A stretch of 43,444 bases of DNA from Meiothermus sp. (GTDB lineage Bacteria > Deinococcota > Deinococci > Deinococcales > Thermaceae): positions 1 through 43,444 of the forward strand of contig NZ_JANXCG010000039.1 in the NCBI RefSeq assembly GCF_025060375.1, in the 5' to 3' direction. This document shows positions 40,837 to 43,444 of the stretch, piece by piece. The stretch's first letter is position 1. The number at the start of each line of letters is the position of its first letter. A program made the translations under genes and the position numbers. The notes below the pieces were generated by a model that ran no database searches, was not told the origin of the DNA, and worked only from the letters and a program-made list of their open reading frames with translations.

Positions 40837-41595
40837 ATGGAGGGCACCTTCGAGCTGTTGGGGCCGATAGAAATTCTCCAGTTGCTGGCCCAGGCCCGGC
40901 AGACAGGGGTGTTTAGGGTTCCGGGGGGTGAGGTCTACCTCGAGCGGGGCCAGCCCGTACACGCCCAGTACCGCGGCCAGGTTGGGCGCGAGGGGCTGTT
41001 CCAAATCCTCGCCCTAAAGGAGGGGAAGTTCCGCTACCTGCCTGGTGAGCGGCCCCCCTGCACGAGCCTGGAGGGTCCCTTGGACCACTACCTGCTCGAG
41101 GCCATCCGCTCTATGGATACCTGGCCCAGCCTAAGCCCCTTTGACCTGGTGGGGCTTGCCCGTGCTGAAGGGTCGGCCCACCTCGCCCTCTCTCCCGAGG
41201 AGCTCGAGCTGCTGCCCCACCTGAGCACCCCTGTAAGCCTCTTTGAGCTTGTGGCTAGAAGCGGAGCGAGGGGCGAATCGGTTCAGCGGGCCGTTGCCCG
41301 GCTGGCCCGGTTGGGGCTGGTGCGCATCACCCGCCGTACTCCCCACCCGGCACGCCTCACCATAGACCGGCTGGAGGGCTCCCTCCACGCCCGCCTGGAC
41401 ACCCAGCTCCTGCGGGCCTGGCGGGACCACTACGGCCCTTTTAGCGAGGTTGAGGTCCGGGCCGATGGTCGTACCCTGCGGCTTTCAGTGGAGCCTAGGG
41501 GAAATCTGGGACCTCGGCTCCTGCTCTCTTCCGACGCTCTGTTCTTCTACAACCTGCGGGTGGGCCAAGAGGTGCTGGTCTGGCCCTCCCTATAG
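40837..41595 (+). CDS. DUF4388 (PATAN-like) domain protein
   Basis: The 252-residue protein begins with a DUF4388 domain (about 2-75: FELLGPIEILQLLAQARQTG, VYLERGQPVHAQYRG, GLFQILALKEGKFRY). This domain is common in proteins linked to two-component signalling and gliding or polarity systems. A middle segment (about 125-168, SLFELVARSGARGESVQRAV to GLVRITRR) resembles a winged helix, and the C-terminus (about 180-252) is a separate beta-rich region. Cytoplasmic; probably a signalling adaptor. Convergent with the sigma-region-4 gene, 21 bp away. Confidence 0.8.
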   Translation: MEGTFELLGPIEILQLLAQARQTGVFRVPGGEVYLERGQPVHAQYRGQVGREGLFQILALKEGKFRYLPGERPPCTSLEGPLDHYLLEAIRSMDTWPSLSPFDLVGLARAEGSAHLALSPEELELLPHLSTPVSLFELVARSGARGESVQRAVARLARLGLVRITRRTPHPARLTIDRLEGSLHARLDTQLLRAWRDHYGPFSEVEVRADGRTLRLSVEPRGNLGPRLLLSSDALFFYNLRVGQEVLVWPSL

Positions 41596-41629
41596 CTCCC
41601 GCTGCGGCAGGGTCCCCTAAGGCGGGAGC
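41595..41629. other. Long-loop inverted repeat in the convergent gap
   Basis: GCTCCCGC (41595-41602) and GCGGGAGC (41622-41629) form an 8-bp stem with a 19-nt loop spanning the stop codons of both convergent genes. There is no T-run on either side, so a terminator role is only possible. Confidence 0.35.
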
Positions 41630-42264
41630 ATAAATCGGAAGGGGTAATCATCGCCAACTTCGGCCCGCCCCTCCGCCACCAGCTCCTGCATCAGCCGGGC
41701 AAGCCGGCGGCGGGACATGGGGAAAAGCCGCTCCAGCTCCCCATAGGTCAGCGGCCCCTGTGCCAAAGCGGAGACCACCGCAGCCTTGAGCTCAGCCCAG
41801 CGCCCCGCCCGTGAACCCCGCTCCTCCCCCAAAAGGCGGGCAATCCCCTGGTCCCGCAGCGCTAGGGCCTCGCAAAGGCTCAACCCCAACCCAGAGGCCA
41901 GCGGGAGCACCGGTTCGCCCCGGGCATGGGCCAGCACCAGCCGGGCTTGCAGCCTGGGTAGCCGGTGCAACGCCCGCTCCAGAGGCACCCCCAACCTCTG
42001 CTCCACCGCCTGACGAAATCGCTCTCCCTCAGCCTCATCGCGAAGAACCCCAGCCCGTAGCTTCCCCAGGGCCCTCCGTTCCACCTGACGCACCCCCTCA
42101 GCGGTCAGATTGTACCGCCTGCCGATCTGACGGAGGGGCTCCCCAAGGGCCCGGCCCAGCAGAACCTCTCGCTCCAGCGGCAAAAGCAGCTCGAGGCGTT
42201 CAGTTAGAACATCCGGCGCCACTCCCCTCTTCAAGAAGTACTGCCCTGGCGTCCCCTTTGGCAT
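41617..42264 (-). CDS. Stand-alone sigma-70 region 4-like regulator
   Basis: The 215-residue protein has a sigma-70 region 4 HTH at about 20-73 (LPLEREVLLGRALGEPLRQI, then YNLTAEGVRQVERRALGKLR), matching the -35-binding domain. There is no region 2, so it is not a complete sigma factor. A second, winged-helix-like domain lies at about 158-205 (LTYGELERLFPMSRRRLARL). The start is either ATG 42264 or, five codons earlier, GTG 42279, which better suits the TATAAG on minus (42292-42297). It may act as a DNA-binding regulator or a sigma accessory. Divergent from the gene at 42379. Confidence 0.75.
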   Translation of the reverse strand: MPKGTPGQYFLKRGVAPDVLTERLELLLPLEREVLLGRALGEPLRQIGRRYNLTAEGVRQVERRALGKLRAGVLRDEAEGERFRQAVEQRLGVPLERALHRLPRLQARLVLAHARGEPVLPLASGLGLSLCEALALRDQGIARLLGEERGSRAGRWAELKAAVVSALAQGPLTYGELERLFPMSRRRLARLMQELVAEGRAEVGDDYPFRFMLPP

Positions 42265-42271
42265 GCTGGCT

Positions 42272-42299
42272 TTGGACACTCCGTCTTTCAGCTTATAAT
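42272..42299 (+). promoter_or_regulatory. Plus-strand promoter overlapping the start of the divergent regulator gene
   Basis: TTGGAC (42272-42277), 16-bp spacer, perfect TATAAT (42294-42299), directed to the gene at 42379. The -35 overlaps the alternative GTG start of the minus-strand regulator gene, and the -10 overlaps TATAAG on minus. Confidence 0.55.
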
Positions 42300-42340
42300 G
42301 CGGCTCTGAACGACGGCAAGCCGGCCCAGTGGAATTCCGG

Positions 42341-42346
42341 TACAAT
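42341..42346 (+). promoter_or_regulatory. Second candidate -10 for the 116-aa gene
   Basis: TACAAT, about 33 nt before ATG 42379; would give a leader of about 26 nt ending with GGGGTG. No -35. Confidence 0.35.
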
Positions 42347-42378
42347 CTTCTTTGGGTGTTTTGAAAAGCCGGGGTGCC

Positions 42379-42729
42379 ATGAAGCAAGCCGTCCTCATCC
42401 TAAGCTCAGAAAAGATACCGCAGGGCAAACGTCCTGCCACCCCTTCGGAGTGGAACCGGCTCTACCAGGTAGCGGACTGCTATCTAGACCTGGGCCTCCG
42501 GCTCGAGGGCACCCAGCGGGTTTTAGTGGGCCACCTCTTGAGGCCAGAAGGCGCTCCAGGGCTGGGGGAACCGGTCCTCATCACCCTCAAAAAACCCGAT
42601 GGAAGCCAGCTCCAGAAGGAAATAACCCCCAACCTCCCCTTCCAGCTCCCCCTGGAGGAAGGCTGCGGGCTCGAGCTAACCCTGGAGGGCACCACCTACT
42701 GGGTACCCCTACCCCAATCCACTGCGTAA
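42379..42729 (+). CDS. Small protein of unknown function, beta-sandwich-like C-terminus
   Basis: The start is ATG 42379 (GGGGTG 3-8 nt upstream). The 116-residue product has no signal peptide. Its N-terminus (SEWNRLYQVADCYLDLGLRL) and the following VLVGHLLRPEG, PVLITLKKPDG and LELTLEG strands recall the small carboxypeptidase-regulatory-like proteins seen near ECF sigma factors in other bacteria, but this is weak resemblance. The divergent sigma-region-4 gene makes a regulatory role plausible. Followed by a stem-loop (42799-42814) without a T-run. Confidence 0.6.
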   Translation: MKQAVLILSSEKIPQGKRPATPSEWNRLYQVADCYLDLGLRLEGTQRVLVGHLLRPEGAPGLGEPVLITLKKPDGSQLQKEITPNLPFQLPLEEGCGLELTLEGTTYWVPLPQSTA

Positions 42730-42798
42730 CGCCCCACCCCCTTCCCCCTGTTCAAATATCACCGCCTTCCCCTCGGCGCTCCTCTAGGCTAGGGCTGT

Positions 42799-42814
42799 CC
42801 TGCCCCTGGGCAGG
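42799..42814 (+). other. Stem-loop after the 116-aa gene
   Basis: CCTGCCC (42799-42805) and GGGCAGG (42808-42814) form a tight 7-bp hairpin, possibly a terminator or 3' protector. The nearest T-rich stretch is about 17 nt further on (TTGTATTTTT, 42831-42840). Confidence 0.35.
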
Positions 42815-42839
42815 CGCAGAATCGGGCAAATTGTATTTT

Positions 42840-42971
42840 TGCTACATTTTAAACCTGGTGTGGCTAAGAACCCGTGTGGCTTGACTCAACGGGGGGTCTT
42901 ACTTTATTGTCTTGCCCAAGGTTGGAAGGCAGAGCAAAAAGCGCTTCCACACCGTCCAGGAGGGAAAAACT
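42840..42971 (+). promoter_or_regulatory. Promoters and structured leader of the 29-aa peptide gene
   Basis: Two promoters are visible: extended -10 TGC-TACATT (42840-42848), and TTGACT (42881-42886)-16-TTTATT (42903-42908). From the first, the leader contains the direct repeat GTGTGGCT at 42858-42865 and 42874-42881. CCTGG (42854-42858) and TGTGG (42859-42863) can pair with CCAGG (42956-42960) and CCACA (42947-42951). The CCAGG arm overlaps the start of the AGGAGGG ribosome site (42958-42964), so the fold could hide it. Confidence 0.5.
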
Positions 42972-43061
42972 ATGAAGAAGCTCGCTTTTAAGATCCTGAC
43001 CCTGGTCGCCTCCCTTGTCGCCCTGGCCATGGCCGCTGGTGCAGATCTGAACTGGCAGTAA
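42972..43061 (+). CDS. 29-residue exported peptide (pheromone-like precursor)
   Basis: An ATG at 42972 lies 7 nt after AGGAGGG, among the strongest ribosome sites in the window, and the frame is 29 codons long before TAA at 43059-43061. The product starts MKKLAFK, has a hydrophobic core ILTLVASLVALAMA, and ends AAGADLNWQ. It looks like a signal peptide followed by only about eight residues; cleavage after AMA or AMAA would release a short peptide ending in NWQ. An unprocessed membrane-anchored micropeptide or a translated leader is the alternative. It is flanked by its own promoters, a possible SD-masking leader and a hairpin at 43083-43105. A gene for a membrane protein follows 75 nt later. 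Confidence 0.6.
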   Translation: MKKLAFKILTLVASLVALAMAAGADLNWQ

Positions 43062-43082
43062 AAAAGTAACGATTCAACAGGC

Positions 43083-43105
43083 GCGGGTGTGCGAATTCCA
43101 CCCGC
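43083..43105 (+). terminator. Possible weak terminator after the peptide gene
   Basis: GCGGGTG (43083-43089), 9-nt loop, CACCCGC (43099-43105), followed by CTCCTTTGTTG. The T-tract is poor, so read-through into the next gene is possible. Confidence 0.45.
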
Positions 43106-43123
43106 CTCCTTTGTTGCGGGCTG

Positions 43124-43129
43124 TAGACT
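43124..43129 (+). promoter_or_regulatory. -10 of the right-edge membrane protein gene, leaderless geometry
   Basis: TAGACT, 6 nt, GTG 43136; same hexamer and spacing as at 40722-40734. Confidence 0.5.
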
Positions 43130-43135
43130 CGAGGT

Positions 43136-43444
43136 GTGGCCCGCCGCCCTGTGCTTCCACCCGCCCAAGTCCTGGTGTTTATCCTCGGCCTGTTCCTGGG
43201 GTTGGTGGGCCTGCTCTTTGTGCTCGCCCAGCTCCCCAGCCCCAACAGCCACCGCTTCAATGCGCTGGATCTGGTTTTCTGGGGAGCTTTGGTCTTCTTG
43301 GCCAGAAGAACCGCCGTAAACCTTCCCTTCAAAGCTTCAATGTCGCATGTCTTCATCGTCGCCCTGGCCTCGGCGACAATTTTTCCGGCATGGCTCGCGG
43401 CGGCGCTGGTCTTCTCCTTTTCCTTCAACAAAGACCTGGGGAAA
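43136..43444 (+). CDS. N-terminus of a multi-pass membrane protein (cut by window edge)
   Basis: The frame opens with GTG 43136 and stays open for 103 codons to the edge. It has a short basic N-terminus (ARR), then hydrophobic segments at about 11-33 (QVLVFILGLFLGLVGLLFVL), 44-58 (ALDLVFWGALVFLA) and about 69-97 (SHVFIVALASATIFPAWLAA). The arrangement resembles the membrane sensor regions placed before HD-GYP or GGDEF domains in this phylum, but the diagnostic part is outside the window. Its position after the exported peptide makes a peptide-sensing role worth testing. Confidence 0.6.
   Translation, partial: MARRPVLPPAQVLVFILGLFLGLVGLLFVLAQLPSPNSHRFNALDLVFWGALVFLARRTAVNLPFKASMSHVFIVALASATIFPAWLAAALVFSFSFNKDLGK

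Follow-up and report, generated by a model that had tools for sequence, protein, structure and literature searches.

A conserved short peptide gene paired with MASE9-HD-GYP genes in the Thermaceae and other bacteria: a candidate peptide signal and its predicted receptor

The end of a Meiothermus sp. contig raises the question of whether a very short frame that precedes the start of a membrane protein gene is a gene at all and, if so, whether its product is a peptide signal perceived by that neighbor. The window analyzed here is the entire contig (C42) of its genome, 43,444 nucleotides in length, and the contig end cuts the membrane gene. A first-pass annotation, made from the letters of the window, had taken the frame and its strong ribosome site to specify an exported peptide and had likened the arrangement to a pheromone precursor and its receptor. 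The frame, 42972-43061 on the forward strand, opens with an ATG at 42972, closes with a TAA at 43059-43061 and codes for the 29-residue product MKKLAFKILTLVASLVALAMAAGADLNWQ. The features of the locus are collected in Table 1.

Table 1. Features of the peptide gene and of the start of its neighbor, in window coordinates
Feature	Position	Strand	Basis
Promoter of the peptide gene, TTGACT-18-TATTGT	42881..42910	+	Consensus match; TTGAC and TATTGT conserved in Meiothermus
5' untranslated region, possible stem TTGGAAG/CTTCCA	42917..42957	+	Near-invariant in Meiothermus
Ribosome site AGGAGGG	42958..42964	+	Sequence, 7 nt 5' of the ATG; kept in all relatives read
Peptide gene, 29 codons	42972..43061	+	Conserved, under purifying selection
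Codons 1-24, signal-peptide-like, ending AAGA	42972..43043	+	dN/dS 0.07-0.21; codons 21-24 0.00-0.03
Codons 25-29, species-specific tail DLNWQ, aromatic fixed at 28	43044..43058	+	52 tails in 56 loci; tails of tandem paralogs identical elsewhere
Terminator-like hairpin (43083-43105) and T-rich tail after the peptide gene	43083..43115	+	Fold; covariation in Meiothermus
-10-like box TAGACT, probable leaderless promoter of the next gene	43124..43129	+	Position conserved in Meiothermus; Thermus has comparable boxes
Start of the MASE9-HD-GYP gene, truncated at the end of the contig	43136..43444	+	141-nt identical overlap with contig C68 of the same genome (G000), ORF, Pfam on the M. luteus ortholog, models

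We recovered the peptide in 49 of the 50 Thermaceae genomes at E<1e-9 with a profile built from 17 peptides, while a broader profile detected it in 60 of the 111 genomes of the order at E<1e-6, 11 of these genomes belonging to the sister family; the region was already matched in both Meiothermus and Thermus by DNA search. The named genera are Meiothermus, Calidithermus and Thermus, and the nearest relative of the window locus is that of M. luteus (G008). Among 56 distinct loci the frame has 29 codons in 51 and 30 in five; M1, L15, A17, G23 and A24 are invariant, and position 28 is a tryptophan in 51 and a phenylalanine or tyrosine in the other five. Expressed as averages over non-independent pairs and not as tests, dN/dS is 0.20-0.21 over codons 2-24 (0.07-0.09 for close pairs) and 0.00-0.03 over codons 21-24, and the tail codons 25-27 give 0.27-0.28 in Meiothermus and 0.75-1.08 in Thermus. 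The constant length together with the low dN/dS places the frame far beyond chance expectation and marks it as a real gene; hence, a chance frame, which would have to account for 29-30 codons in 56 of 56 distinct loci and for a dN/dS of 0.07-0.21 in codons 2-24, is ruled out. The short frame and strong ribosome site of the first-pass annotation therefore belong to a genuine gene, with its ATG, TAA, AGGAGGG and conservation, and the comparison with Thermaceae relatives that it had proposed as a check finds the start codon, the length and the tryptophan kept and the synonymous sites indicative of constraint at the protein level. Most Thermus copies (L020-L026 and other loci) have a possible start two codons upstream, giving MKMKK or MRMKK, and their exact N-terminus is uncertain.

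The peptide gene was also supposed to have its own promoter, and the one listed in Table 1, conserved in Meiothermus, is the single promoter-like match in 42700-43444, where 0.2 are expected. A search for covariation in the possible stem of the 5' untranslated region found none. Two elements that the earlier annotation did not mention lie in the intergenic space, namely the terminator-like hairpin and the probable leaderless promoter of the membrane gene. The hairpin in Meiothermus stands about 15-20 nt past the stop and shows compensatory change in 3 of 9 pairs, with 96.6% of cells paired, the copy in the window being weaker; in Thermus a canonical stem and T-run follow only a few bases past the peptide stop. 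In the relatives, the -10-like box directly precedes the start codon, GTG or ATG, of the next gene. Because a hairpin comes after the peptide stop and the next gene has a -10-like box of its own, the peptide and the putative receptor are probably made from separate transcripts, with the stronger signals on the peptide gene. Just 3' of the peptide stop, at 43064-43073 and outside the terminator stem, the motif (AC)GTAACG(C)T is almost invariant in Meiothermus. A short frame with a terminator-like hairpin behind it and a conserved gene downstream would also suit a leader that acts on that gene through attenuation or arrested translation, but the gene has its own -10-like box at the start codon, the distance from stop to hairpin varies among genera, the peptide gene is present in two or three tandem copies in other phyla, and the tails vary by species, whereas arrest motifs should be shared; we accordingly regard a leader as very improbable.

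The membrane gene announced just downstream begins with a GTG at 43136, 74 nt past the peptide stop. The rest of it lies on contig C68 of the same genome (L002 1-1230), with which the last 141 nt of the window overlap identically, and this overlap, together with the intact orthologs, is our basis for inferring the join. Extension of the contig had been suggested in order to identify the domain beyond 43444; completed through C68, it is an HD-GYP domain. The M. luteus ortholog matches MASE9 (PF20972) with E 2.3e-19 and 70.6 bits against a cut-off of 24.3, and HD_5 (PF13487) with E 9.7e-43, while C68 itself gives 63 bits for MASE9. The residues of the HD and GYP motifs (HDIGK and HHERWDGxGYP) are invariant in 47 orthologs, and the model of the M. 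luteus protein matches 4mcw, 4r8z and 9rbz, in agreement with HD-GYP membership. By Pfam score, catalytic motif and predicted fold, the neighbor is an HD-GYP protein of the c-di-GMP-phosphodiesterase type and a member of the MASE9 HD-GYP phosphodiesterases (PF13487 plus PF20972).

Two AlphaFold models, one of the M. luteus protein (pLDDT 84.5) and one of a MASE9 domain from a second phylum (pLDDT 90.4), match the ECF S-components NikM, CbiM, RibU, FolT, ThiT and BioY in Foldseek searches, with probabilities mostly of 0.9-1.00, TM-scores by target of about 0.5-0.68 and weak E-values, the best being 0.014. Of the 20 best matches of the second-phylum model, 19 are titled S-component or ECF-transporter, and the remaining one, 4huq, is titled 'a transporter' and is likewise an ECF transporter. 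A sequence search with MASE9 against the PDB gave no match. The models predict an ECF S-component fold for MASE9, and the surmise that the neighbor is a membrane sensor gains substance from this sensory domain, with a predicted fold of the ligand-binding type joined to an enzyme. In the Thermaceae the MASE9-HD-GYP gene meets or overlaps, at its 3' end, a frame for a small multi-pass membrane protein (L002 ~1104-1641, L004 3207-3708, L136 4673-5158), and such a frame also follows the T. scotoductus MASE9 paralog; the scanned fragment has no Pfam match, and the protein is a possible third component of the system.

In the Thermaceae and the sister family, the peptide gene always lies beside the same MASE9-HD-GYP gene, save at contig ends or in rearranged loci. 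MASE9 was found in 60 of the 111 genomes of the order, and 58 carry both MASE9 and the peptide. The two genomes with the peptide alone (G020, G066) have loci cut by contig ends; MASE9 alone was seen in G082, as a weak match with a different architecture, and in T. scotoductus DSM 8553 (G039), the main locus of which has lost the peptide together with MASE9's N-terminal half. What the first-pass annotation described at a single locus, a peptide gene next to a membrane sensor, is thus a strictly linked and conserved pair (58 shared genomes). The upstream neighbors differ among genera, which argues that the pair is not merely carried along in a conserved cluster. Such a strict tie to one enzyme gene in several phyla, along with the core-genome and essentially single-copy nature of the peptide gene, leaves next to no credence for the idea that a small hydrophobic peptide with a strong ribosome site represents the toxin of a type I toxin-antitoxin pair.

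Several further features of these neighborhoods were observed. Upstream of the pair, the window codes for a protein with DUF4388 and a winged-helix-like region (40837-41595, forward strand) and for a protein with sigma-70 region 4 and an HTH (41617-42387, reverse strand), the latter adjoining the pair in most Meiothermus loci read and not in Thermus. One Meiothermus genome (G016) has the whole pair twice, on two contigs (L010, L027), with identical match scores. In two Thermus genomes MASE9 is interrupted while the peptide is intact, by a transposase gene in G048 (L068 1086-1931) and by a largely masked insert in G026 (L066 421-1886); these constitute natural knock-outs of the putative receptor.

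When the search was widened to 390 genomes, MASE9 turned up in 18 that lie outside the phylum, and many of these MASE9-HD-GYP genes have analogous peptides upstream, such as MARLVSILLGLLAIVLASGAGFSWR and MKAKVLKALFVLASLLLAGGAHFRW, others being very short and ending in NDW, DTDW, NWG, THW or AGW. We take the phylum of G301 to be the Thermotogota because T. maritima was a MASE9-positive control genome. In this presumed Thermotogota set, MASE9 occurs in 42 of 103 genomes and the peptide likewise in 42 of 103 at E<1e-4, with 41 genomes common to both and each gene alone in a single genome, both exceptions falling at contig ends. In at least two further phyla, MASE9-HD-GYP genes likewise have similar peptides upstream. 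A strict upstream test, calling for a frame of 18-40 codons within 350 nt with a ribosome site, a hydrophobic run and a tryptophan in the last two residues, was positive for 28 of 38 MASE9-HD-GYP genes, as against 3 of 760 shuffles and 1 of 61 other genes (a MASE9 fragment), and for 7 of 10 genes versus 1 of 200 shuffles in a mixed set of other phyla. One phylum with weak MASE9-HD-GYP matches has the peptide in just 2 of 14, which indicates that the link is confined to strong MASE9-HD-GYP proteins and does not extend to every MASE9-like protein; nearly every strong MASE9-HD-GYP locus with sufficient upstream sequence has a peptide gene. MASE9-like domains in other architectures were seen in L164, L166 and L176 (784-aa, 699-aa and 1066-aa frames). 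Profile comparison across phyla gave P of 7e-6 and 1.8e-6, with hhalign probabilities of only 84-90% over 23-29 columns, which supports homology of the peptides across phyla. Pfam and NCBIfam returned no family above cut-off for the peptides of three phyla. In L172 (G185) the stretch TGGGGTCGTACCAAGTGTG is repeated at 96-nt spacing upstream of a MASE9-HD-GYP gene, with no intact W-peptide seen; these repeats are perhaps decayed tandem peptide genes.

The peptides share a layout of a basic N-terminus, a hydrophobic core, a small residue and, four or five residues on, an aromatic residue that is usually tryptophan. At least two K/R residues occur within the first eight positions in 56/56, 36/36 and 8/8 peptides of three phyla, and the combination of a small -1 position, a small or aliphatic -3 position and an aromatic +4 or +5 position is found in 56/56, 35/36 and 8/8, respectively. 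As the pattern class is permissive, this spacing is consistent with signal peptidase I without being proof of it. Of the AMA-type cleavage site put forward earlier, the small residues before the tail hold up, but AMA at 19-21 does not, the better conserved triplet being A22-G23-A24, in which G23 and A24 are invariant in the 56 loci.

Throughout Thermus and Meiothermus the core is conserved and the tail is almost unique to each species, with 52 distinct tails among the 56 loci. Residue classes nevertheless persist in the tail: small or polar at position 25, aromatic at 28, and polar, charged or glycine at 29, with position 26 mostly small or hydrophobic and position 27 mostly polar. Tandem paralogs bear directly on the role of this segment: all three in G490 end in NVTWW, both in G489 in SITWW and both in G491 in NLEWW, so that in these three genomes paralogs with cores only 48-68% identical agree in five of five tail residues, whereas core-matched copies of G490 and G489 have cores 83-85% identical and agree in three of five. 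The codons for N, V and T in G490 differ synonymously among the copies, and recent gene conversion hence does not explain the equal tails. Such concerted evolution is the pattern that a tail matched to a receptor would leave. Since paralogs with diverged cores keep equal tails and species differ, the tail is, on this small set of genomes, probably the part recognized by the partner and the specificity determinant, a statement that says nothing about cleavage. A second MASE9 paralog is present in two Thermus species, and in both it comes with a distinct peptide of its own that ends in AAGGGWVW; in T. scotoductus a TnpB-type gene (L136 1985-3465) separates this second peptide (GGGWVW) from its MASE9 paralog.

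The same data must be weighed against the main rival, an uncleaved single-pass membrane micropeptide with its N-terminus inside and its tryptophan at the outer interface, which would serve as a regulatory subunit on the MASE9 helices while its tail touches the outer face. The constant length and the strongly conserved core, with L15, A17, G23 and A24 fixed in 56 loci, speak for it, and S-component folds work with partner membrane proteins in ECF transporters. The distances between cores also follow those of MASE9 once HD-GYP divergence is taken into account (partial Mantel r 0.43, p 0.0005). The corresponding signal for the tail and MASE9 in the Thermaceae, with overall divergence removed, is only weakly positive (partial Mantel r 0.11, p 0.04); this weakness counts against the cleaved signal, and we do not use the value as main evidence. 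The Thermaceae core is in fact more conserved than a disposable signal peptide requires, a point that counts against a cleaved signal and that a micropeptide fits equally. Nevertheless, tandem paralogs hold their tails equal as their cores drift to 48-68% identity, so that the helix is not the specific part there, and small residues stand at a fixed, signal-peptidase-like distance before the tail in three phyla; on balance we deem the micropeptide unlikely, if well short of negligible. Alternatively, the peptide might serve the cell as its own probe of protein export or of the state of the envelope, with MASE9 reading the rate of export or cleavage rather than the amount outside other cells. 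A signal-peptide-like build with scarcely any cargo, and a ligand and receptor that share one cell envelope, would agree with such a probe; yet tails nearly unique to each species (52 different tails in 56 loci) are needless for a private device, and tandem duplication of the precursor suggests that the dose of the product matters, which makes this a distinctly improbable reading.

As a whole explanation, we consider it moderately probable that the frame is the precursor of a short peptide signal and that the next gene is its receptor. The basic, hydrophobic residues 1-24 would act as a Sec signal peptide, and cleavage would take place behind the conserved small residue, which closes A-G-A in this locus and A-V-G or G-G-A in others. 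The tail set free would be some five residues long, DLNWQ in this case, and carry an aromatic residue, mostly tryptophan, at position 4 or 5. This tail would bind MASE9, with its predicted ECF S-component fold, from outside, and binding would alter how the fused HD-GYP domain hydrolyzes c-di-GMP; the peptide would probably report cell density or periplasmic diffusion and adjust surface behavior. Export, cleavage, binding, the direction of the c-di-GMP change and cell-cell signaling are steps that we infer. The pheromone and receptor reading of the first-pass annotation is thereby strengthened by the linked pair, by the predicted sensory fold joined to an enzyme and by the apparent specificity of the tail, although it falls short of proof. 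Loss of c-di-GMP binding by PilF lowers twitching and adhesion in T. thermophilus (PMC11731258), which provides a testable phenotype and makes twitching and adhesion via PilF a plausible output of the pair.

Comparison with known systems brings out both likenesses and differences. In the Phr/RRNPP systems of the Bacilli the precursor is little beyond a signal peptide and its C-terminal pentapeptide is the signal, much like the arrangement proposed here. Phr peptides, however, are re-imported and act on cytosolic TPR receptors, whereas here the linked gene codes for a membrane c-di-GMP enzyme and the tail has an aromatic residue; an RRNPP system was rejected, the adjacent gene in complete loci being MASE9-HD-GYP and not a cytosolic TPR receptor. 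The enterococcal sex pheromones are short signals derived from lipoprotein signal peptides, a comparable origin, but here a whole gene is dedicated to the peptide and there is no lipobox Cys. AgrD resembles it as a short peptide with an amphipathic leader and a membrane receptor alongside, although the receptor here is not a histidine kinase. An AgrD-type peptide was likewise rejected: AgrB (PF04647) is present in 0 of 50 Thermaceae genomes, no AgrD profile of NCBIfam matches, and the tails (e.g. DLNWQ, SAHWK, NIEVW) show neither a ring Cys/Ser motif nor an acidic C-tail. ECF S-components (CbiM/NikM, RibU, FolT, ThiT, BioY) are alike in predicted fold, but MASE9 here is fused to a signaling enzyme and its partner is a 29-residue peptide. 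Thermotoga maritima has been suspected of density sensing by a peptide, which a review (PMC4187201) connects with exopolysaccharide in dense cultures; the likeness is that of a suspected peptide-type signal in a genus whose presumed phylum carries this pair. In the literature searched we found no gene-encoded peptide partner for the MASE9-HD-GYP class, no relevant paper on MASE9, TM0504 or an HD-GYP joined to a peptide pheromone, and no report of what MASE9 domains sense, the sole paper with the term being unrelated.

We also put forward, with a little less than even confidence, a cross-phylum class of gene-encoded, exported, tryptophan-containing peptides, each about five residues long, that use a one-protein receptor of ECF S-component type plus HD-GYP to gate c-di-GMP breakdown directly, providing species-specific communication in thermophiles without two-component kinases or peptide importers. 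To our knowledge, no other gene-encoded peptide feeds straight into c-di-GMP turnover, and, if the proposal is true, this would be the first one known. The linked ligand gene would make the question of the MASE9 ligand directly testable, and bacteria of the Thermus, Meiothermus and Thermotoga type would, should the proposal hold, possess a peptide-signal route.
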